Shown here: piece after piece, positions 54,079 to 64,000 of the stretch | Layout of the letters: every line of letters starts with the position of its first letter | How positions within the stretch are numbered: the stretch's first letter is position 1 | Assembly: GCF_900112705.1 (NCBI RefSeq) | Contig: NZ_FOMR01000010.1 | Span: forward strand, 1-64,000 | DNA length: 64,000 nucleotides | Source: Lentibacillus persicus | GTDB lineage: Bacteria; Bacillota; Bacilli; Bacillales; Amphibacillaceae | Reading direction: 5' to 3' | Position numbers and translations under genes: made by a program | Notes under the pieces: model-generated | Told to the model about the DNA's origin: nothing | The model's database searches: none | What the model saw: the letters and a program-made list of their open reading frames with translations, nothing else

Positions 54079-54252
54079 TTGACACTTCGGAATTTCATGA
54101 ATATAATGTAATTAACCTTATGTCGACAATCGACAAGCTAGTCCTTTTTCCTTACAGATAGATTCACTCGTTTTATTTTTTTACCCTATCAATATATCTC
54201 ATCGAGAAGCACCATTTCTCTTATGTGTCGACAAAAAAGAAAGCGCTTACCA
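54079..54252 (+). promoter_or_regulatory. doeA promoter, GntR operators and cre-like site
   Basis: TTGACA (54079-54084), 17 bp, TATAAT (54102-54107): a perfect promoter. TGTCGACAATCGACA (54121-54135) is a perfect palindrome (arms TGTCGA/TCGACA, spacer CAA), identical to the site before gntR. A second partial copy, TGTCGACAAAAAAGA, lies at 54226-54240. AGAAAGCGCTTACC (about 54238-54251) fits the CcpA cre pattern with one mismatch in the outer TG. The 265 bp before 54079 show nothing recognisable. Confidence 0.8.
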
Positions 54253-54288
54253 AAGGCGGCGAAAAGGAACGACGGGGAGGGATAATCT

Positions 54289-55476
54289 ATGTTGGCATTT
54301 CCTATTTCTGAATATCACGAACGTTTAAACAAAACGAAACACAAAATGGCTCAGGCCGGGGTTGATTTGCTGATTGTTACGGACCCTGCAAACATGAACT
54401 ATTTAACAGGGTATGATGCGTGGTCGTTTTACGTGCACCAGATGCTCCTTGTGGCGCTCGAGGAAGAACAGCCGATTTGGGTAGGACGCGGCCAGGATGC
54501 GAATGCCGCGCTCCATACGACATGGCTGGAGGAAGACCGCATCATTTCATATGGGGATGACTATGTCCAGTCATCTGTGAAGCATCCAATGGATTTTGTA
54601 TGTGATATTTTGAAGCAGAATAACTATGATACTAAAACAATCGCCGTTGAGATGGATGCTTACTATTTTACGGCCAAGAATTATGTGTGTTTAACACAAG
54701 GGCTGCCGAATGCCACATTTAAAGACGGAACAAACATGGTAAACTGGGTGCGCATTATTAAATCAGATCGTGAAATAGCTTATTTGAAACAAGCTGCCCG
54801 GATCTCTGAAAATGCCATGCAGGTGGCATTTGATATGATAAATGAAGGTGTGAGGGAATGTGACGTCGTTGCGGAAATATCCCATGCACAAATCAGCGGC
54901 ACCGAGGATTTTGGCGGTGACTACCCGTCAATTGTGCCACTCTTGCCAACCGGTGAAAAAACATCAGCATCCCATCTGACGTGGACGGATGATCGATTTA
55001 AGGATGGCGATCCTGTCATAATCGAATTGGCTGGCGTATACCGGCGTTATCATTCACCGCTTGCCCGAACAGTGGTGATAGGAAGACCTTCAGAAGATAT
55101 GCAGTACGTCTCGGACATTGTCCTTAATGGCATCAATACGACGCTTGACGCGGTGCGTCCCGGTATAACATGCGGGGAACTGGAAGGCGTCTGGCGCAGT
55201 GTTATTGAAAAAAGCGGCATTCGTAAAGAATCAAGAATGGGTTATTCAGTGGGGCTCAATTATCCGCCTGATTGGGGTGAGCATACAGCGAGCCTTAGAC
55301 CTGAAGACGAGACGGTTCTGGAACCAAACATGACATTTCATTTGATCCCGGGTATCTGGATGGAGAAAATGGGAGTGGAAATTAGTGAATCATTTCGTGT
55401 GACTGAATCAGGCTGTGAAGTTCTTGCCGAGTTTCCGCGGGAGCTCATGGTCAAACCAAACATCCGGCTGGCATGA
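54289..55476 (+). CDS. doeA: Ectoine hydrolase
   Basis: Opens the ectoine ring to N-acetyl-L-2,4-diaminobutyrate, the first step of ectoine degradation (DoeA/EutD). A 395-residue creatinase/aminopeptidase-P-fold protein. The sequence closely follows known DoeA: LIVTDPANMNYLTGYDAWSF near 28-47, VGRGQDANAA near 64, FGGDYPSIVPLLPTG near 206-220, RRYHSPLARTV near 256 and GLNYPPDWGEHTASLRPED near 322-340. It does not keep the full metal set of true aminopeptidase P, as expected. It has its own promoter with the regulon palindrome, separate from the rest of the pathway. Confidence 0.92.
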   Translation: MLAFPISEYHERLNKTKHKMAQAGVDLLIVTDPANMNYLTGYDAWSFYVHQMLLVALEEEQPIWVGRGQDANAALHTTWLEEDRIISYGDDYVQSSVKHPMDFVCDILKQNNYDTKTIAVEMDAYYFTAKNYVCLTQGLPNATFKDGTNMVNWVRIIKSDREIAYLKQAARISENAMQVAFDMINEGVRECDVVAEISHAQISGTEDFGGDYPSIVPLLPTGEKTSASHLTWTDDRFKDGDPVIIELAGVYRRYHSPLARTVVIGRPSEDMQYVSDIVLNGINTTLDAVRPGITCGELEGVWRSVIEKSGIRKESRMGYSVGLNYPPDWGEHTASLRPEDETVLEPNMTFHLIPGIWMEKMGVEISESFRVTESGCEVLAEFPRELMVKPNIRLA

Positions 55477-55538
55477 CACTTCAGTGCTAAGGAGCTGGCT
55501 TGAATATGATAGCTGTTTGTTATCATTATGCTTTTAAT

Positions 55539-55578
55539 TAAAACAGCCGTACAAGGCAAGCGAAGTACGGCTGTTTTT
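55539..55578. terminator. Bidirectional terminator after doeA
   Basis: AAAACAGCCGTAC pairs with GTACGGCTGTTTT, with T-run on the plus side and A-run on the other, between convergent doeA and the D-2-hydroxyacid dehydrogenase. Confidence 0.93.
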
Positions 55579-55585
55579 GTGTGTT

Positions 55586-56569
55586 TCACGCTTTTTTTAT
55601 TGATTCAGGATTAACTAAATTCGGCGGATTCTCGCCGTTTATGCCCGCTTCAAGGTTCTTGGCGGCAAGTTCTGACATGGCAAGTTCGGTTTCGTGTGTG
55701 GACGAGCCAATATGCGGTGTTGTCACCACGTTTTTCATCTTCAGGAGCGGGTTATCGGGCTCAACTGGTTCGTTTTCAAATACATCAAGAGCCGCAGCTG
55801 CTATTTCGCCATCTTCAAGGGCTTTAATCAGGTCTTTTTCCACAATTGTTTTGCCGCGGGAGCCGTTAACGAAAATAGCCGAGTTTTTCATCAGCTGAAA
55901 CTCCCGAAAGCCGAGCATTTCTTCTGTTTCCGACGTCAGTGGCGTGATCATGCAGACAAAATCGGATTCCTGAAGCAGTTCATCCAGCTCGCGATAGCCT
56001 GCAGAAAAAGTTGCTTCAGCATCTTGCTTCCGGCTGCGGCTGTGATAAAGGATAGCCATGTCAAATCCAAAGTGGGCACGCTGGGCAATGGCTTTTCCAA
56101 TCCGGCCCATCCCAATGATACCGAGCGTTTTATGGTGAATGTTTGTCCCGTAATGTTCTTCACCAATTGCTTCAGTCTGCCAGTTTCCATTTTTGACAAA
56201 TTGGTCAAGCTCCGGAATGCGTCTCGCCGCTGCTGTAAGTATGCTGAAAACGGCGTCTGCCACTGTATCGGTAAGAATGCCCGGTGTGTTAGTGGCCATA
56301 ATTTGCCGCTTGTTCATTTCCTCTATATCCAGGTTATTGTATCCGACCGAGACATTACTGACGACCTTTAAGTTTGGTGCGTTTTCGAGCAGGTCACGGT
56401 CAACAGGGGTTTCAAGCCCAATAATTCCTTCCGCGTCTTTTAGATGTTCCAAAAACGCCGGGTCTTTTTTTGTATCGACGTTTTCAAAAAAATGGACGTC
56501 GTACTTTTCTTTTAAATCATCCAGAACCGGCTGTTCAACACGGTTATAGGCTATAATTTTCTTTTTCAA
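55586..56569 (-). CDS. D-2-hydroxyacid dehydrogenase
   Basis: A 327-residue NAD(P)-dependent dehydrogenase of the glyoxylate/hydroxypyruvate/2-ketogluconate reductase group. Rossmann motif GIIGMGRIGKAIAQRA near 147, catalytic Arg in VNGSRGKTI near 230, Glu in DVFENEP near 259, His in TPHIGSST near 280. TTG at 56569 is taken as start because GGAGGGA lies five bases before it. It is transcribed divergently from gntR and convergently to doeA, inside the ectoine block; a role on a hydroxy or keto acid from hydroxyectoine is possible but unproven. Confidence 0.88.
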   Translation of the reverse strand: MKKKIIAYNRVEQPVLDDLKEKYDVHFFENVDTKKDPAFLEHLKDAEGIIGLETPVDRDLLENAPNLKVVSNVSVGYNNLDIEEMNKRQIMATNTPGILTDTVADAVFSILTAAARRIPELDQFVKNGNWQTEAIGEEHYGTNIHHKTLGIIGMGRIGKAIAQRAHFGFDMAILYHSRSRKQDAEATFSAGYRELDELLQESDFVCMITPLTSETEEMLGFREFQLMKNSAIFVNGSRGKTIVEKDLIKALEDGEIAAAALDVFENEPVEPDNPLLKMKNVVTTPHIGSSTHETELAMSELAAKNLEAGINGENPPNLVNPESIKKA

Positions 56570-56710
56570 GTCAATCCCTCCATTTTGCGTCACAGTTTTT
56601 AATCCTGTAACAGGTAAAGAGCTACAAAATTTTATTATAAAGTGCCTTTCTTTTAAAATAGACGCAAATCAGAACTAAGTCAATTAATTTCAAATTATCT
56701 AAAATTTTTG

Positions 56711-56771
56711 TTGACAATGAAATGGTGCTAAATTATGATGAGTGTAGGATGTTTTTTGTCGACAATCGACA
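56711..56771 (+). promoter_or_regulatory. Promoter and operator of the gntR-doeDC operon
   Basis: TTGACA (56711-56716), 17 bp, TATGAT (56734-56739). TGTCGACAATCGACA (56757-56771) lies 17 bp after the -10, identical in all 15 bases to the site before doeA and placed to block transcription. The likely binder is the FCD regulator encoded next. Confidence 0.85.
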
Positions 56772-56809
56772 CTGAACAAAAAGACATTTCCAGAAAGGAG
56801 CAGTTGGTT

Positions 56810-57490
56810 TTGCAGCCTATCAATAGCGCCATTATGCAAAAACCATTAAGCGAACTGATTGCTGATGAACTGAAGCATAAGATTTGGAATGAAGAGATTC
56901 AGTTTGGTGAGAGGCTCCTGGAAACCGATTTGGCGGAAAGTTACGATGTCAGCCGAAGTACAATCAGAGAAGCGCTGAAAATACTTGAAAGTGAAGAACT
57001 TGTTGTCAGTCAGGCACGAAAAGGAACCTATGTTGCTGATTTCACCAACCACGATGTCAATGAAATGATTGAATTAAGAACGCTTTTAGAATCACATGCA
57101 TTTAAGCAGGCAGTAGCACGCCTTAAACCTGAAGACACGGCAAAACTGGAAGCCATTGTAAACGAAATGAAACAAAAGGCAGACGAAAATGACTGGAATG
57201 GTTTATTCGATTTGGATATGACATTTCATAGTTATGTCGTTGGGTTGTGCGGGAATACAAGAATTATTAAGATTTATGATTCCCTTCAAGTACAGATCAG
57301 AACATTTTTAATGCATCTGGACAGGTACTACTCAAGCCCGCAAGCGTTTTATAATGAGCACAAGCAATTGCTTGAGGCATTAGTCTCAAAGGATGGGCAT
57401 ATTGTGAATGGGAGAGTCAGAGAACACATTGAGTATGTCGAGACTAAGCTGCTGGGAAAAAATAGTGATATAGATTATAAGGAGGTATGA
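56810..57490 (+). CDS. GntR/FCD-family regulator of the ectoine cluster
   Basis: A 226-residue regulator. The winged helix is about residues 10-75 (DLAESYDVSRSTIREALKILE near 38-58) and the FCD effector domain about 80-215 (ELRTLLESHAF near 84, with metal/ligand histidines around FHSYVVG and EHKQLLEA). It is not of the MocR type known as EnuR in proteobacteria. TTG at 56810 is nine bases after AAAGGAG; longer frames start upstream of the operator. First gene of the operon and probably self-regulated. Confidence 0.88.
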   Translation: MQPINSAIMQKPLSELIADELKHKIWNEEIQFGERLLETDLAESYDVSRSTIREALKILESEELVVSQARKGTYVADFTNHDVNEMIELRTLLESHAFKQAVARLKPEDTAKLEAIVNEMKQKADENDWNGLFDLDMTFHSYVVGLCGNTRIIKIYDSLQVQIRTFLMHLDRYYSSPQAFYNEHKQLLEALVSKDGHIVNGRVREHIEYVETKLLGKNSDIDYKEV

Positions 57491-57493
57491 CAA

Positions 57494-58846
57494 ATGAGTA
57501 AAAAATTTGCTAATGTCAAAACGGAACTGCCAGGACCAAAGGCAAAGGAGCTGCTTGACCGCAGGCATAATATAGTGCCTGATGGCGTGAGTTATGGTGC
57601 GCCGACATTTGTGGATACGGCAAAAGGGGCGCTTCTGAAAGATGTGGACGGTAATCAGTTTATTGATTTTGCCGGGGCGATTGGCGTTATTAATGCCGGT
57701 CATAGCCATGACACCGTTGTAAGCGCTTTACAGGATCAGGCTGCTAAGTATATTCATACAGGTTTTAACGTCATGATGTACGACCCGTATATCGAATTTG
57801 CAGAAAAACTAGCAGAACTTGCGCCAGGCAGCTTTGACAAAAAAGTCATGTTTCTTAACAGTGGTGCCGAAGCGAATGAAAATGCCATTAAAATTGCCCG
57901 GAAATATACCGGTCGCCAAGCGGTTGTTTCGTTTACCGGCGGCTTTCATGGCCGGACACTGATGACGATGTCAATGACAGGGAAAGTGAAACCGTACAAA
58001 TTTGAGTATGGCCCATTTGCTCCCGAAGTTTATCATGCACCGTTCCCGTATAATTATCGCCGACCTGAATCGATGGGTGAAGATGAATATGCTGAATACT
58101 TGCTGAAACAAGTTGAGGATTTCTTCATTACGGAAGTCGATCCGACACAAGTGGCCGCGTTTATTATGGAACCGGTCCAGGGCGAGAGCGGGTTTATCAT
58201 CCCGAATAAAAAGTTCGTCCAAGGGGTATATGAACTATGCAAGCAGCATGGCATCCTGTTTATCGCTGATGAAATCCAGACAGGGTTTGGCCGAACAGGC
58301 AAATATTTTGCAATGGAGCATTTCGACGTTGCTCCTGATATGGTTACTGTATCCAAGTCCATGGCTGCCGGGTTGCCGATCAGCGGCGTGATTGGCCGGC
58401 AGGAAGTTATGGACGGAGCCGGAGCAGGCGAACTGGGCGGCACATATTGTGGAAGTCCGCTTGGCTGCCGCGCAGGTCTTGCAGTATTGGAAGTTATGGA
58501 AAAAGAAAACTTGAATGACCGTGGGGTTGCAATCGGTGAAAAAGTTATGAGGAAGTTCAGTGAAATGTACGACCGGTTTGATGCCATCGGTGATTACCGT
58601 GGTCTTGGTGCCATGTGTGCGCTTGAGTTTGTCACGGACCGGGACAGCAAAGAACCGGATAAGAAAATGGCCCCGCAAGTATTAAAAGAAGCGCGTGACC
58701 GTGGGCTGATTGCTTTGAAAGCGGGTGTTTATGACAATGTTGTCCGCCTGTTAATGCCGCTGGTGATTACTGATGAACAGCTGGAAGAAGGTTTGGAGAT
58801 TCTTGAAGAGGCAATTGAAGCAGCGACAGCCAGCGTAAAAGTTTAG
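57494..58846 (+). CDS. doeD: Class III aminotransferase, DoeD-like (GabT-related)
   Basis: A 450-residue omega-aminotransferase. Motifs: FIDFAGAIGVINAGHSH near 55-71, NSGAEANENAIKIAR near 120, FTGGFHGRT near 147, and the PLP pair Asp in LFIADEIQTGFGRTG near 255 and Lys in VSKSMAAGLP near 286. By sequence it could be a 4-aminobutyrate aminotransferase. In this cluster the expected substrate is L-2,4-diaminobutyrate, whose 4-amino transfer gives aspartate semialdehyde. Four bases after the gntR stop. Confidence 0.82.
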   Translation: MSKKFANVKTELPGPKAKELLDRRHNIVPDGVSYGAPTFVDTAKGALLKDVDGNQFIDFAGAIGVINAGHSHDTVVSALQDQAAKYIHTGFNVMMYDPYIEFAEKLAELAPGSFDKKVMFLNSGAEANENAIKIARKYTGRQAVVSFTGGFHGRTLMTMSMTGKVKPYKFEYGPFAPEVYHAPFPYNYRRPESMGEDEYAEYLLKQVEDFFITEVDPTQVAAFIMEPVQGESGFIIPNKKFVQGVYELCKQHGILFIADEIQTGFGRTGKYFAMEHFDVAPDMVTVSKSMAAGLPISGVIGRQEVMDGAGAGELGGTYCGSPLGCRAGLAVLEVMEKENLNDRGVAIGEKVMRKFSEMYDRFDAIGDYRGLGAMCALEFVTDRDSKEPDKKMAPQVLKEARDRGLIALKAGVYDNVVRLLMPLVITDEQLEEGLEILEEAIEAATASVKV

Positions 58847-58868
58847 GCCATATTCGAAAAAACATTTC

Positions 58869-58903
58869 AAAAAAGCTGGCAGCGGGTTAAATCCTGTGCC
58901 AGC
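58869..58903. terminator. Hairpin between doeD and doeC
   Basis: GCTGGCA pairs with TGCCAGC. There is an A-run before it and no T-run after it, so it would end minus-strand transcripts or stabilise the operon mRNA rather than stop the plus-strand operon. Confidence 0.55.
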
Positions 58904-58934
58904 CAATAGACTAAAACACAGGAGTGATGCAGTG

Positions 58935-60377
58935 ATGGCAGTTCAAACGAAAAACTATTCAATGTGTATTAACGGTGAATGGGTTGGCAGTGATCTTGAT
59001 ACGATGGACGTTGTGAATCCGGCTAATGGCGAAGTGATTGGGACGGTTCCATATGGCGGTGAAAAAGAAGCTGAGCAGGCTGTCGATGCAGCTTATGACG
59101 CTTTTCAACCATGGTCCGAACTGACAGCGTATGATCGCGCAGCATACCTGGAAAAATTGAACCAGCTAATGCTCGACAACCAGGAAGAAATGGCTGAAAT
59201 CATGACGCTTGAAATGGGGAAACCGATTAATGAATCGAGAGGCGAAGTTAAATATGCCGCTTCATTCTTGAAATGGTTTGCAGAAGAAGGAAAACGCATC
59301 TATGGTCAAACGGTACCGACCCACGGGAGTGATAAACGGCTTCAAGTGTGGAAGAAACCAGTTGGCGTCGTAACCGCTATTACACCATGGAACTTCCCGG
59401 CAGCTATGCTGACACGTAAGATGGGACCGGCGCTTGCCTCGGGCTGTACCTTTATCATGAAGCCATCGAGTGATAGCCCGCTCACGGCTGTTAAACTGAT
59501 GGAACTGGTCGAGCAAGCCGGATTTCCAAAAGGGGTCGTCAATCTTGTAACAGGCTCATCATCCAAGATTGCGAAAGTATCGATGGAAAACAGCAAAGTG
59601 CGCAAAGTGACATTCACCGGCTCAACCGAGGTCGGCAAAACATTAATTCGTCAGAGCGCCGATCAGGTGAAAAAGTTATCGCTTGAACTTGGCGGGCACG
59701 CGCCTTTGGTTGTTCTTGACGATGCCGACCTCGATGCTGCAGTTCAGGGAACAGTCGCATCTAAATTCCGCAATTCGGGGCAGACATGTATTTGTGCTAA
59801 CCGGGTTTATGTGCAGGAAGGTATTTATGATCAATTCGTTGAGAAGCTGACCGAAGCTGTTAAAGAATTGAACGTCGGGGACGGCATGGACGAATCTAAC
59901 CAAATTGGACCATTAATCAACCAGGATGGTCTGGATAAAGTAAAACGTCATGTTGATGATGCGGTCTCAAAAGGCGCAACTGTAGAAACCGGCGGTGAAA
60001 CAGCTGGCGGGAGTGAAGGGCTCTTTTATCAGCCCACAGTTATTAAAGATGTAGACCAATCAATGGTCGTCATGCAGGAAGAAACATTTGGTCCCGTTAC
60101 CCCTGTTGAGAAAATCAAATCTGATGAAGAAGCGGTCAAGATGGCTAACGATACGCCGTATGGGCTGGCAGCATATGTCTTTACCGAAAGTGTCTCCAGA
60201 GGCACACAGTTAATTGAAAAACTTGATTTTGGAATTGTCGGCTGGAACAATGGTGCTCCGTCAGCGGCACAGGTGCCATTCGGCGGCATGAAAGAAAGCG
60301 GGATCGGCCGTGAAGGCGGTCATGAAGGAATCGAGGAATTTGTGGAATCACAGTATGTAGCAATCGGCATGAAATAA
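58935..60377 (+). CDS. doeC: Aldehyde dehydrogenase, DoeC-like (GabD-related)
   Basis: A 480-residue NAD(P)-dependent dehydrogenase. PWNFPA near 151, FTGSTEVGK near 231, catalytic Glu in LELGGHAP near 254 and catalytic Cys in GQTCICANR near 288. It is closest in style to succinate-semialdehyde dehydrogenase; in this cluster oxidation of aspartate semialdehyde to aspartate is the expected step. ATG at 58935 after AGGAGTG. Confidence 0.82.
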   Translation: MAVQTKNYSMCINGEWVGSDLDTMDVVNPANGEVIGTVPYGGEKEAEQAVDAAYDAFQPWSELTAYDRAAYLEKLNQLMLDNQEEMAEIMTLEMGKPINESRGEVKYAASFLKWFAEEGKRIYGQTVPTHGSDKRLQVWKKPVGVVTAITPWNFPAAMLTRKMGPALASGCTFIMKPSSDSPLTAVKLMELVEQAGFPKGVVNLVTGSSSKIAKVSMENSKVRKVTFTGSTEVGKTLIRQSADQVKKLSLELGGHAPLVVLDDADLDAAVQGTVASKFRNSGQTCICANRVYVQEGIYDQFVEKLTEAVKELNVGDGMDESNQIGPLINQDGLDKVKRHVDDAVSKGATVETGGETAGGSEGLFYQPTVIKDVDQSMVVMQEETFGPVTPVEKIKSDEEAVKMANDTPYGLAAYVFTESVSRGTQLIEKLDFGIVGWNNGAPSAAQVPFGGMKESGIGREGGHEGIEEFVESQYVAIGMK

Positions 60378-60401
60378 GCACTCAGAAAGGATGAGTATCT
60401 G

Positions 60402-60788
60402 ATGAAAGAAGCCATCCAAACGCTGAACGCGCCTCAGCCGGGCGGACCATATTCACAGGGCGTTAAGACTGAGTCATTCATCTTTGTTTCCGGACAGGAT
60501 GGTGTAAAGGCGAACGGTGAGTCAGTCGGGGCATCAATTGCTGCCCAAACGACTGCCGCGCTCGAGAATATTAACAATATACTGGCGGCGAAAGATGCTG
60601 ATTTATCAAGTTTGGTCTATGTAACGTGTCATTTGACAGATTTAAACGATGAGACGGTTCGCGAATTTAATAAAGCTTATGAGGATTATTTTCACGACGT
60701 TGATGTGAAACCTGCCCGGATCACCGTCGGAAGCCAGCTTTTGGAAACGGATGTCGAAATAACAGCAATCGCCGCGGTGGAGCGGTAA
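60402..60788 (+). CDS. ridA: RidA-family enamine/imine deaminase
   Basis: A 128-residue RidA (YjgF) trimer protein that hydrolyses reactive 2-imino or enamine acids. GGPYSQGVKT near 14-23, catalytic Arg in KPARITVGSQL near 106 and Glu in DVEITAIA near 120. A PLP dehydratase (eutB) lies two genes downstream in the same operon and would produce such enamines, which explains its presence. Confidence 0.9.
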   Translation: MKEAIQTLNAPQPGGPYSQGVKTESFIFVSGQDGVKANGESVGASIAAQTTAALENINNILAAKDADLSSLVYVTCHLTDLNDETVREFNKAYEDYFHDVDVKPARITVGSQLLETDVEITAIAAVER

Positions 60789-60880
60789 ATAGTTAAAGTG
60801 AATAATAGAAACGTGTGACGGAATCGGCTTGGGTGTCGATTCCCTTTTCTCACTAAGAATTTAAAGCAGGGGGGGTAAGA

Positions 60881-62080
60881 TTGTCGAGCGATATAAAGTC
60901 AGCTGCAAAAAATATGCAAACGCAATTATCACAATGGCGGCAGCATTTACACCGGCATCCGGAATTGAGTTTCCAGGAAACTGAAACGGCTAATTTTATT
61001 GCAAAAAACCTGGAGGCGATTCCAGATATGACAGTAACCACGGGAGTCGGTTATCCAACAGCTGTAATGGGAACGCTTACAAATGGTGCCGGACCAACTG
61101 TGGTCATCAGGGCAGATATGGATGCATTGCCGATTCAGGAAGAAAATGAGTGCAGCTATAAATCATTGCATGATGGGGTTATGCATGCATGCGGACACGA
61201 TGCCCACACAACCATTGGACTGGGAACTGCCAGTTTAATAGGTGACTTGTTTGAAAAAGGTGAGTTAAAAGGAACGGTCAGATTTCTCTTCCAGCCGGCC
61301 GAAGAAGCTGCAGATCAATACGGTTCAACAGGGGCCCCGTATATGATCAAAGCTGGGGCACTGGAAGGTGCTGATTGTGTCCTCGCACTTCACATGAGCC
61401 CGGAAGATGAGCTTGGTCAGGTTAAAGTTCATGACGGATACAGCATGGCCAACGTGGATGTGTTTGAAGCAGTCGTTACCGGCAGTGGCGGTCATGGTGC
61501 ATACCCGCACCTCGGCAAAGATCCGGTGTGGATGCTTGGTCCCGTGCTTCAAGCGCTTCATGGAATTGTTGCGCGCCGTGTTTCACCGCTTGATTCAGCT
61601 GTGGTCAGTGTTGGCAGTATTCAAAGCGGTTTTGCAAGCAATGTCATCCCCTCAGAAGTTCATGTAAAAGGTACGATTCGCAGCTATCATCCCAAGGTTC
61701 GTGAATTGCTGCATAACGAGCTGGAAAAAGCATTTTCATTAGTCCGGGCGCTTGATGGAGATTATCACTTGACGATTAAACCTGAAGATCCCGCTCTCTA
61801 CAATCATGCCGTCGTCAACCAGCTAGTCAGACAAACAATCAGCGAATTATATCCCGATTTTTTAATGCTTAATACACCGTTTGGGCTGGGTGGCGAGGAT
61901 TTCGCCCATATGACACAAGAGGCCCCTGGCGCAATGTTCTTTCTTGGCTGCGCAGTCGGAGATGATAAGGTTCGTGATTTGCACACGCCGCATTTTGATA
62001 TAGATGAGAATGTATTGCCTGTCGGGACAGCAATTCTGGCTGAGTCAGCGCGGCGCTTTTTAAATAATGGGTCACCGTAG
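60881..62080 (+). CDS. M20-family amidohydrolase in the place of DoeB
   Basis: A 399-residue zinc amidohydrolase of the aminoacylase/IAA-amino-acid hydrolase type. HRHPELSFQE near 26, metal-binding MHACGHDAHT near 103, catalytic Glu-Glu in QPAEEAADQ near 143, HMSPEDELG near 170, and GGEDFAHM near 333. Known DoeB/EutE deacetylases belong to a different zinc family (AstE/AspA), so this would be a non-homologous replacement that releases acetate from N-acetyl-diaminobutyrate. Start TTG at 60881 after a GGGGGG run. No other deacetylase is in the window. Confidence 0.85.
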   Translation: MSSDIKSAAKNMQTQLSQWRQHLHRHPELSFQETETANFIAKNLEAIPDMTVTTGVGYPTAVMGTLTNGAGPTVVIRADMDALPIQEENECSYKSLHDGVMHACGHDAHTTIGLGTASLIGDLFEKGELKGTVRFLFQPAEEAADQYGSTGAPYMIKAGALEGADCVLALHMSPEDELGQVKVHDGYSMANVDVFEAVVTGSGGHGAYPHLGKDPVWMLGPVLQALHGIVARRVSPLDSAVVSVGSIQSGFASNVIPSEVHVKGTIRSYHPKVRELLHNELEKAFSLVRALDGDYHLTIKPEDPALYNHAVVNQLVRQTISELYPDFLMLNTPFGLGGEDFAHMTQEAPGAMFFLGCAVGDDKVRDLHTPHFDIDENVLPVGTAILAESARRFLNNGSP

Positions 62081-62158
62081 TAGCTGGATACTGTTTGAAT
62101 TGGCTTATTGACACATAAACAGAAATAGCAATCATACCATCCAAAAAGGGGGGGTGAC

Positions 62159-63151
62159 ATGGCAATAAATCAAGTTACCCAACAAGATGTTTGGAATGCT
62201 AAACGTCGGATTGCACCGATTGTTTCGAAATCACCATTAATATTCTCTGAACAGCTTTCAGAATACACCGGGATTCCGATTCATTTAAAACTGGAAAACT
62301 TGAATGTCAGTCATTCGTTTAAAATCAGAGGGGCTGCCAACAAAATTCTGAGCCTATCAAGCGAAGAACAAGCGCGGGGTGTGACAACATTTTCAACAGG
62401 CAACTTTGGAATGAGTGTTGCATATGTTGCGAGACAGCTCGGTATCAATGCGATTATCTGCATTTCCAGACGCGTTCCAAAAGCGAAAGTAGATGCTTTA
62501 AAACGTTCCGGCGCACAAATTGAAATTTATGGCGACTCGCAGGATGATGCAGAGGAGCGCAGTTATCAGCTTGAAAAAGAGCAAGGATTGACAGTGGTCC
62601 ATCCCTTTGATGACGCGCATATCATTGCTGGTCAGGGAACGATCGGGCTTGAATTACTGGAAGACTTGCCGGATGTAGACACGGTAATCGGCGGTTTATC
62701 AGGCGGCGGCCTTCATTCCGGTCTTGGTGTTTCGTTGAAATCAGCTAATGCCGGGATTCAAATTTTTGGTGCTTCCACCGAAAAAGGCCCCGCAATGTAT
62801 GAAAGCATTCAAAAAGGAAAACCGGTCGTGATAGAAGAGCAGGATACGCTTGCTGATAGTCTGCTTGGTGGTATCGGACTGGAAAATAAGTATACGTTTA
62901 ACATGGTGCAGCAATATGTTGATGATATCCAGTTGCTGGATGAAGCTGAAATGGGAATGGGAATGGCTTTCATGCTGGATAAACACCGTATGATGGTGGA
63001 AGGGGCCGCTGCTTCAGGTGTCGGTGCAATCTTGAATAACCGCTTCACACTGGGTTCAAAAGGCGTCGTTGTTATCAGTGGCTGCAGTGTTGATACGGAA
63101 ACAATAATGGACGTTATGAAAAAGTACGGTGATTATGGTCCCGGAAGTTAA
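62159..63151 (+). CDS. eutB: Hydroxyectoine utilisation dehydratase EutB
   Basis: A 330-residue fold-type II PLP dehydratase related to threonine dehydratase. PLP lysine in SHSFKIRGAANK near 57, STGNFGMSVA near 82, IYGDSQDDAEERS near 121, phosphate loop GGLSGGGLHS near 180 and LADSLLGGIGLENKYTFNMV near 226-245. The last two stretches are characteristic of EutB rather than IlvA. Compared with the window's ilvA it has Phe for His in the usual GNHG/GNHA turn. A 3-hydroxylated amino acid from hydroxyectoine, such as 3-hydroxyaspartate, is a plausible substrate. EutC was not found in the window. Confidence 0.87.
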   Translation: MAINQVTQQDVWNAKRRIAPIVSKSPLIFSEQLSEYTGIPIHLKLENLNVSHSFKIRGAANKILSLSSEEQARGVTTFSTGNFGMSVAYVARQLGINAIICISRRVPKAKVDALKRSGAQIEIYGDSQDDAEERSYQLEKEQGLTVVHPFDDAHIIAGQGTIGLELLEDLPDVDTVIGGLSGGGLHSGLGVSLKSANAGIQIFGASTEKGPAMYESIQKGKPVVIEEQDTLADSLLGGIGLENKYTFNMVQQYVDDIQLLDEAEMGMGMAFMLDKHRMMVEGAAASGVGAILNNRFTLGSKGVVVISGCSVDTETIMDVMKKYGDYGPGS

Positions 63152-63172
63152 CTAGCAGAAGGAGGTTTTACA

Positions 63173-64000
63173 GTGGGAAAAATGCTTTATAATGATCAGA
63201 TTATGGAGCGGGAAAGCGTGATGGATATTGAGGACCGCGCGTATCAATTTGGTGATGGCGTATATGAAGTCATCGGTGTGTATGACGGCACCCCGCTGAT
63301 GATGGATGAACATATGGAGCGTTTGGAAAGAAGTGCGCGTGAACTGCGGCTGGATTTGCCTGCTCCCGTCAAGGATATCAAAGCTAACCTCGAGAAATTG
63401 GTGGAAGCCAACGAGCTGGAAGAAGGGATTATCTATATGCAAATCTCCCGTGGCATCGCTTCTCGTGAACATGCATTTCCTGAACCAGGCACTCAGGCTG
63501 TCACCGTTGCCTATACACGTGAAGAGACCCGGCAGTCTGACCTTGAAGATAATGGCGGAACAGCAGTGCTTGCTGAAGATATTCGCTGGCTGCGCTGTGA
63601 TATTAAAACACTTAACCTGCTCCCTAACGTCATGGCCAAACAAAAAGCTGTCGAGAATGACGCAGTGGAAGCCATCCTGCACAGAGGCAATACTGTGACA
63701 GAAGCAAGCGCATCGAATGTTTTTATCGTTAAAGACGGTGAGTTATATACCCACCCTGCTGATAATTATATATTAAATGGCATTACAAGAAGAAAAATAA
63801 TTCAGTTAAGCGGCGAGTTGGGTATTAAAGTGAACGAACAAACATATACGGTTGATGATTTGCTGAATGCTGATGAAGTCTTTATTTCAGCTACAAAACA
63901 AGACATTGTTCCAATTTTGAAGGTTGACGACCAAACGATAGGCGATGGCCGGGCTGGTAAAATAACACACAAGATATTACAGGCGTTCCGGTCACTTTAT
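63173..64000 (+). CDS. dat: D-amino acid aminotransferase (incomplete at right edge)
   Basis: 276 codons are present with no stop; the family is about 280-290 residues, so little is missing. A fold-type IV PLP enzyme: DIEDRAYQFGDGVYEVIGVY near 17-36, Schiff-base Lys in CDIKTLNLLPNV near 144, EASASNVFIVK near 177 and LNGITRRKII near 202. It resembles D-alanine aminotransferase rather than IlvE. GTG at 63173 follows GGAGG. Last visible gene of the ectoine operon, 21 bp after eutB. Reason for a D-specific enzyme here is not known. Confidence 0.88.
   Translation, partial: MGKMLYNDQIMERESVMDIEDRAYQFGDGVYEVIGVYDGTPLMMDEHMERLERSARELRLDLPAPVKDIKANLEKLVEANELEEGIIYMQISRGIASREHAFPEPGTQAVTVAYTREETRQSDLEDNGGTAVLAEDIRWLRCDIKTLNLLPNVMAKQKAVENDAVEAILHRGNTVTEASASNVFIVKDGELYTHPADNYILNGITRRKIIQLSGELGIKVNEQTYTVDDLLNADEVFISATKQDIVPILKVDDQTIGDGRAGKITHKILQAFRSLY

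Follow-up and report, generated by a model that had tools for sequence, protein, structure and literature searches.

In the 64,000-nucleotide stretch of Lentibacillus persicus DNA analysed here (contig NZ_FOMR01000010.1, positions 1 to 64,000; the window), the genes between position 54,079 and the window end, together with an unlinked transporter operon, probably form a regulon for uptake and catabolism of ectoine and hydroxyectoine that is predicted to be controlled by an FCD-type GntR repressor. We put the probability of this reading, regulon and substrate taken together, at about 0.78. A preliminary description of the window, made from its letters, had proposed such a regulon in a Gram-positive bacterium, and the proposal is now backed by the genome-wide specificity of the operator, its co-occurrence with the regulator, the promoter geometry compared with a control and the presence of EhuBCDA-type transporter genes in three relatives.

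The putative operator, TGTCGACAATCGACA, was located by sequence inspection as an exact 15-mer at 54121-54135, upstream of doeA (O1), and at 56757-56771, upstream of the gntR operon (O2), with no strand assigned to either; both are perfect 6-3-6 inverted repeats, TGTCGA-CAA-TCGACA. The home genome, i.e., the one to which the window belongs (3,314,552 bases, 23 contigs), contains three exact copies, the third lying on another contig (C12, 186319) upstream of a DctP-DctQ-DctM operon for a tripartite ATP-independent periplasmic (TRAP) transporter. A scan of the 3.31 Mb revealed no place with one mismatch and eight places with two. Matches with up to three mismatches total 91 versus 99 for the control, so that the weak matches, taken together, do not exceed chance. 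The looser repeat TGTCGANNNTCGACA was found at three sites in the home genome and at none with a reversed-pattern control, which makes a chance origin of the palindromes very unlikely. Among 159 genomes of the family (see below), TGTCGANNNTCGACA is present in 49 and is very frequent in two, G095 (64 copies) and G101 (13), where the copies among the matches listed have other centres (e.g., TGTCGAAATTCGACA) and thus belong to a different repeat or regulon. Since the looser repeat is this widespread and differs in its centre in G095 and G101, the exact 15-mer was chosen for counting.

All three exact copies are found just downstream of predicted σA promoters. The doeA promoter (54079..54107, + strand) is TTGACA-17-TATAAT, with 12 of 12 consensus letters, and that of the gntR operon (56711..56739, + strand) is TTGACA-17-TATGAT, with 11 of 12; the promoter-like element of the TRAP operon also has a 17-bp spacer and matches 12 of 12 letters. 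The operator follows the -10 box at a distance of 13 bp at doeA and 17 bp at both gntR and the TRAP operon. We collected 75 sites with at most one mismatch located beside doeA, gntR, a second aminotransferase gene or the TRAP operon in the home genome and its relatives; letter counts over these sites are biased toward conservation, since the mismatch limit was used to select them. A promoter match of at least 10/12 is present just upstream of 69 of the 75 sites, compared with 57 of 2883 control positions (30-250 bp before other open reading frames (ORFs) of the same loci), and two of the six failures are sites of G023 and G033 that, by position, serve hdh, a dehydrogenase gene divergent from gntR. 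A protein bound at the operator would cover the transcript start, and polymerase would therefore be blocked. The simplest reading of this arrangement would be repression by roadblock, in which the regulator also controls its own operon and is released by a carboxylate intermediate. The preliminary description had reported identical palindromes at O1 and O2, each preceded by a σA promoter with a 17-bp spacer, and both statements proved correct. The genome search for more palindromes that it proposed added one exact copy, at the TRAP operon; thus, the shared operator stands, and the regulon of two promoters becomes one of at least three.

Further elements are present around the operators. An isolated TGTCGACA octamer in the doeA leader (54226..54233, no strand assigned), one of five such octamers in the window, is possibly an accessory element. 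Boxes resembling the catabolite-responsive element (cre) of CcpA lie near O1 (54237) and near the TRAP operator (L109 2402). A search with a cre consensus, allowing up to two mismatches, retrieved 77 matches versus 53 expected in the window and 7 versus 6 in L109, and these boxes are not claimed as sites.

To follow the regulator and its operator through the family, the 159 genomes were searched for GntR (E ≤ 1e-40), DoeA (E ≤ 1e-60) and EutC (E ≤ 1e-60). GntR was found in 40 genomes and DoeA in 86; DoeA is present in 37 of the 40 genomes with GntR versus 49 of the 119 without it, and doeA and gntR share one locus, with similar neighbours, in 12 genera. The exact 15-mer occurs in 31 genomes, 29 of the 40 with GntR and 2 of the 119 without (Fisher p = 1.8e-20, the genomes being related and not independent trials). 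In one exception, G146, the contig stops ca. 360 bases beyond the site, where the start of gntR would be expected. In the other, G067 (L107 8257-9779), the 15-mer is flanked by a GntR relative of 33% identity and by an ORF judged short-chain-dehydrogenase-like from reading its sequence. By locus maps and coordinates, 52 of the 55 exact copies listed for the family lie either before doeA or between hdh and gntR, the remaining three being at a second aminotransferase gene (G078), at the home TRAP operon and in G067. In 11 GntR genomes the exact 15-mer is missing, and the locus of each has at least one site within one mismatch of TGTCGACANTCGACA. Of the 33 relative loci with doeA, 25 have a site of this kind upstream of the gene.

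The gene content of 37 gntR loci (the 40 GntR genomes minus the home genome and minus G113 and G143, which were mapped separately) was tabulated, with presence defined as at least 45% identity in a greedy ORF set, a procedure that undercounts contig-end or overlapping genes, ridA above all. By this measure, hdh is present in all 37 loci, the aldehyde dehydrogenase gene in 35, doeA in 33, the D-amino-acid transaminase gene dat in 32 and the racemase gene in 31. A survey of the order (E ≤ 1e-45) retrieved GntR in 5 of 397 genomes, two of these in another family; among these loci, L143 has a site with one mismatch 23 bp before hdh, and L142 has two-mismatch sites only. In eight loci (L095, L096, L097, L100-L103 and L121), a second class III aminotransferase gene is divergent from doeA and has its own operator-like site. 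Seven of the eight (L121 is cut by the contig end) are without the first aminotransferase in the gntR operon, and the second enzyme apparently replaces it there; the one from L103, the only one scored, falls into the PRK07678 subfamily.

The regulator gene (56810..57490, + strand) codes for a putative repressor of 226 aa. The promoter contains the first ATG of the frame (56735), and the TTG at 56810 was therefore taken as the start. The protein passes the Pfam gathering cut-offs for the GntR winged helix-turn-helix (65.1 versus 27 bits) and FCD (97.6 versus 24.3 bits) domains, in agreement with the preliminary assignment to the FCD type rather than to the MocR type of EnuR. At 226 aa it is without the C-terminal aminotransferase-like domain of EnuR, which binds pyridoxal 5'-phosphate (PLP), and the EhuR model NF052286 aligns to residues 8-124 only, with 26.4 bits (cut-off 480). 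Its closest named relatives, at 80-85% identity, are from Lentibacillus (L. halodurans, L. jeotgali, L. salicampi and Lentibacillus sp. CBA3610). Matches to structures are weak, 60 bits to PDB 7xp0 and 58 bits to 3sxy, which we take to be TM0439. Residues D..FH, EH and H, which are metal ligands in FCD proteins, align with 3sxy and, together with the helix-turn-helix, are conserved in most relatives; in G110 and G113, Q replaces one H.

The window genes downstream of the promoters supply candidates for a catabolic pathway. The doeA-like gene (54289..55476, + strand) codes for a putative ectoine hydrolase of 395 aa whose best PDB match is ectoine hydrolase DoeA, 6twk (E 4e-122, residues 2-389); its score for TIGR02993 is 510.8 bits, with a cut-off of 613. 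On the opposite strand, hdh (55586..56593) codes for a GhrB-like D-2-hydroxyacid dehydrogenase (380 bits, cut-off 492). The gntR gene is followed, on the + strand, by a class III aminotransferase gene (57494..58846; NF005376, γ-aminobutyrate (GABA) transaminase, 756.8 versus 676) and an aldehyde dehydrogenase gene with an assumed start (58935..60377; TIGR01780, succinate-semialdehyde dehydrogenase (SSADH), 654.3 versus 646.35), which may have DoeD-like and DoeC-like roles, respectively. Next on the same strand are genes for a RidA-family protein (60402..60788; PF01042, 96.1 versus 27.3; TIGR00004, 95, below the cut-off of 106.25) and an M20 amidohydrolase (60881..62080; TIGR01891, 367.6 versus 153.75). 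The latter reaches 244 bits with the DoeB2 model NF038260 (cut-off 550) and may act as the N-acetyl-diaminobutyrate deacetylase; no EutE/DoeB deacetylase was found among the nine window proteins scanned, a scan that did not extend to the rest of the genome.

The eutB-like gene for a PLP ammonia-lyase (62159..63151, + strand) comes next. The two best families of its product are NF005680 (395.6, cut-off 413) and TIGR02991, hydroxyectoine dehydratase EutB (349.2, cut-off 413.35). Then dat (63173..64000, + strand; TIGR01121, 364.9 versus 277.45) runs past the window end, and beyond it lie a racemase gene (C5:64099-65229), whose 82%-identical relative in G047 passes the alanine-racemase cut-off, and an antiporter-like ORF that we presume to be NhaC-like. 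As can be seen, the doeA and eutB products named in the preliminary description have the expected best families, with both scores under the curated equivalog cut-offs. The class III aminotransferase, aldehyde dehydrogenase and RidA that it listed are all there; it had missed the M20 amidohydrolase, the divergent hdh and dat.

Evidence on the substrate comes from transporter genes of relatives. In G148, G151 and G069, four EhuBCDA-type ATP-binding cassette transporter genes are located between doeA and hdh, in the direction of doeA. The G151 set, the one scored against curated models, passes all four ectoine-transporter cut-offs (EhuB, 245.3 versus 190.9; EhuC, 198.9 versus 196.95; EhuD, 226 versus 205.2; EhuA, 366.1 versus 345.4), and the G148 and G069 sets are 75-87% and 71-81% identical to it. 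A lone EhuB relative (70-72%) is present in the loci of G045 and G049. The best PDB match of G151 EhuB is 2q88, which we take to be the ectoine-binding protein of S. meliloti. We consider the G151 transporter the best independent evidence for an ectoine substrate. The home genome also has an ectoine synthase gene (C12:136821-137195; PF06339, 197.6 bits), so the organism is a likely producer and a predicted consumer of ectoine, and the switch may serve to keep synthesis and consumption apart.

A two-mismatch operator, TGTCGACAATCGATT, is found at C12:320556 (L134 3557), in an intergenic region before a deacylase gene and a second TRAP operon. The deacylase is 63-75% identical to DapE/ArgE-type deacylases of those gntR loci that have doeA elsewhere or not at all, and the second TRAP transporter is 56-74% identical to those of G110 and G113. 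It may represent a weak fourth target, although sites with two mismatches, taken together, do not exceed chance. The same locus contains an ORF (L134 11020-11712) with resemblance to ZorB1, an anti-phage protein of the Zorya system (87 bits, cut-off 400); the ORF before it, of 613 aa, has no family match at E ≤ 1e-20.

We propose the following mechanism. A GntR dimer bound to TGTCGACAATCGACA just downstream of the start points of the three σA promoters would block transcription of doeA, of its own operon (autoregulation) and of the unlinked TRAP uptake operon. The DoeA-like hydrolase would open traces of imported ectoine, giving N-acetyl-diaminobutyrate or the corresponding hydroxy compound; this product or a later carboxylate would enter the FCD pocket and release the repressor. 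Deacetylation would then be carried out by the M20 amidohydrolase, conversion to aspartate semialdehyde by the class III aminotransferase and oxidation to aspartate by the aldehyde dehydrogenase, and the hydroxyectoine branch would fall to EutB, RidA and the D-amino-acid transaminase/racemase pair. The order of the enzymes is modelled on the DoeABCD route, and DNA binding, repression, the ligand and each enzyme step are predictions from sequence.

EutC was not found in the home genome at E ≤ 1e-60 and is present in 11 of the 159 family genomes, of which only G110 has GntR, with EutC at another locus. Identity to the home racemase is 54-87% for the racemases of the clusters, compared with 34-40% for other racemases among the matches listed, which suggests that dat and the racemase may replace EutC. 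No second racemase match was found in the home genome at E ≤ 1e-60, so the cluster enzyme may have a housekeeping role. A bolder version of the proposal, which we offer as doubtful speculation, is a separately evolved GntR-FCD ectoine regulon with a hydroxyectoine branch that dispenses with EutC. EutB would produce an oxo-acid, RidA would clear the imine, and the transaminase and racemase would re-aminate via a D-amino acid; the inducer would be a metal-held carboxylate in the FCD pocket, and the operator would recruit unlinked transporters lineage by lineage.

Several observations weigh against a GntR-controlled ectoine regulon. DoeA and EutB score under their equivalog cut-offs, and the aminotransferase and aldehyde dehydrogenase pass those for GABA transaminase and SSADH. 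Eight of the 33 doeA loci are without an assigned site of at most one mismatch. G023, G033 and G116 carry GntR without DoeA at E ≤ 1e-60, and in G110 and G113, DoeA is encoded at another locus than gntR; in all five, gntR adjoins hdh, a relative of the aldehyde dehydrogenase gene and a DapE/ArgE-type deacylase gene (scored in G023 and G110, assigned by identity in the other three). Conversely, G057 (L125 7100) has the operator TGTCGACAATCGGCA, with one mismatch, and a 12/12 promoter at doeA and no GntR at the cut-off, and parts of the cluster are kept without GntR in G056 and G065. Compared with PDB sequences as a guide to its solute, the TRAP operon DctP matches 90 of them and is not closest to 2vpn (118.8 bits versus 201.6 for the best), which we take to be TeaA. 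A TRAP orthologue in G083 (63%) is without the operator, so the TRAP operon as a third target rests on one genome.

Some of these observations would fit a regulon that predates ectoine use, with GntR, hdh and the aldehyde dehydrogenase as a core that served a different N-acylated or omega-amino acid. In this case, doeA would be a later addition, and a hydroxy- or oxo-acid formed further down the pathway would act as inducer. Such a history would account for hdh and the aldehyde dehydrogenase gene being present in more of the tabulated loci than doeA, for the five deacylase-linked gntR genes, for the home deacylase relative and second TRAP operon behind the two-mismatch operator at C12:320556, and for the GABA transaminase and SSADH scores. 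We consider it unlikely, given that 33 of the 37 loci contain doeA, in 25 cases along with a site of at most one mismatch, and that EhuBCDA-type genes are part of the doeA operon in three relatives; since this explanation overlaps with the ectoine regulon, the odds of the two do not sum to one. It is very improbable that some other regulator binds the palindrome, or that the palindrome serves for activation or processing, with gntR as a passenger. The G067 15-mer beside a mere 33% GntR relative and the G057 site without GntR point that way, and are outweighed by the distribution of the 15-mer (29/40 versus 2/119 genomes), by the palindrome preceding gntR itself, after the -10 box, and by the well-conserved recognition region of GntR. 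We give hardly any credence to a D-alanine/GABA cluster misnamed through resemblance: the sub-cut-off doeA and eutB scores and a cluster racemase that is the sole home match at E ≤ 1e-60 would agree with it, and the linkage of doeA to gntR in 12 genera, the ectoine-type transporter genes in the doeA operon and the ectoine hydrolase as the best solved relative of DoeA contradict it.

The GntR-controlled ectoine regulon can be compared with several known systems. Earlier reports restricted the genes for ectoine catabolism to Proteobacteria; Gram-positive clusters are proposed in a 2026 paper, which notes PucR genes and asks for validation (PMC13188858). The putative Bacillota clusters have the layout pucR-eutBCD-atf, without EnuR, and the main text of the paper mentions neither GntR nor Lentibacillus. 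The cluster described here is likewise Gram-positive, with DoeA and EutB homologues, an amidohydrolase gene and no EnuR; its gene map departs from the pucR-eutBCD-atf layout, the regulator being GntR-FCD, EutC not being found, and dat and a racemase gene following eutB. The DoeABCD route of Halomonas elongata (PMC5924519) is similar in that DoeA is the best solved relative of the hydrolase and that a candidate enzyme is available for each of the four steps; it differs in that the deacetylase candidate here is of the M20 kind, the aminotransferase and aldehyde dehydrogenase score as GABA transaminase and SSADH, and the regulator is another one. No GntR-FCD ectoine regulon was found in the literature searched on ectoine catabolism and its regulators, nor was the operator 15-mer. 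For a further set of halophilic Bacilli, the analysis provides a precise operator and a candidate regulator, both cheaply testable. It also adds an unlinked transporter to the predicted targets and draws attention to a possible replacement of EutC.

With the FCD-type GntR proteins 7xp0 and 3sxy, the regulator shares the winged helix-turn-helix and the FCD domain, and its target genes and operator differ from theirs. It may be likened to EnuR (EhuR), the MocR-type regulator of Proteobacteria such as Ruegeria pomeroyi, a repressor of genes for ectoine uptake and catabolism that acts at a σ70-type promoter. In contrast to EnuR, the protein described here, of 226 aa, has an FCD domain in place of the PLP-binding aminotransferase domain, and one identical 15-bp site is present at three separate operons. 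GntR-FCD is a regulator type not previously linked to ectoine in the literature searched, and the predicted regulon is a conserved one that comprises, in the home genome, three promoters or more.

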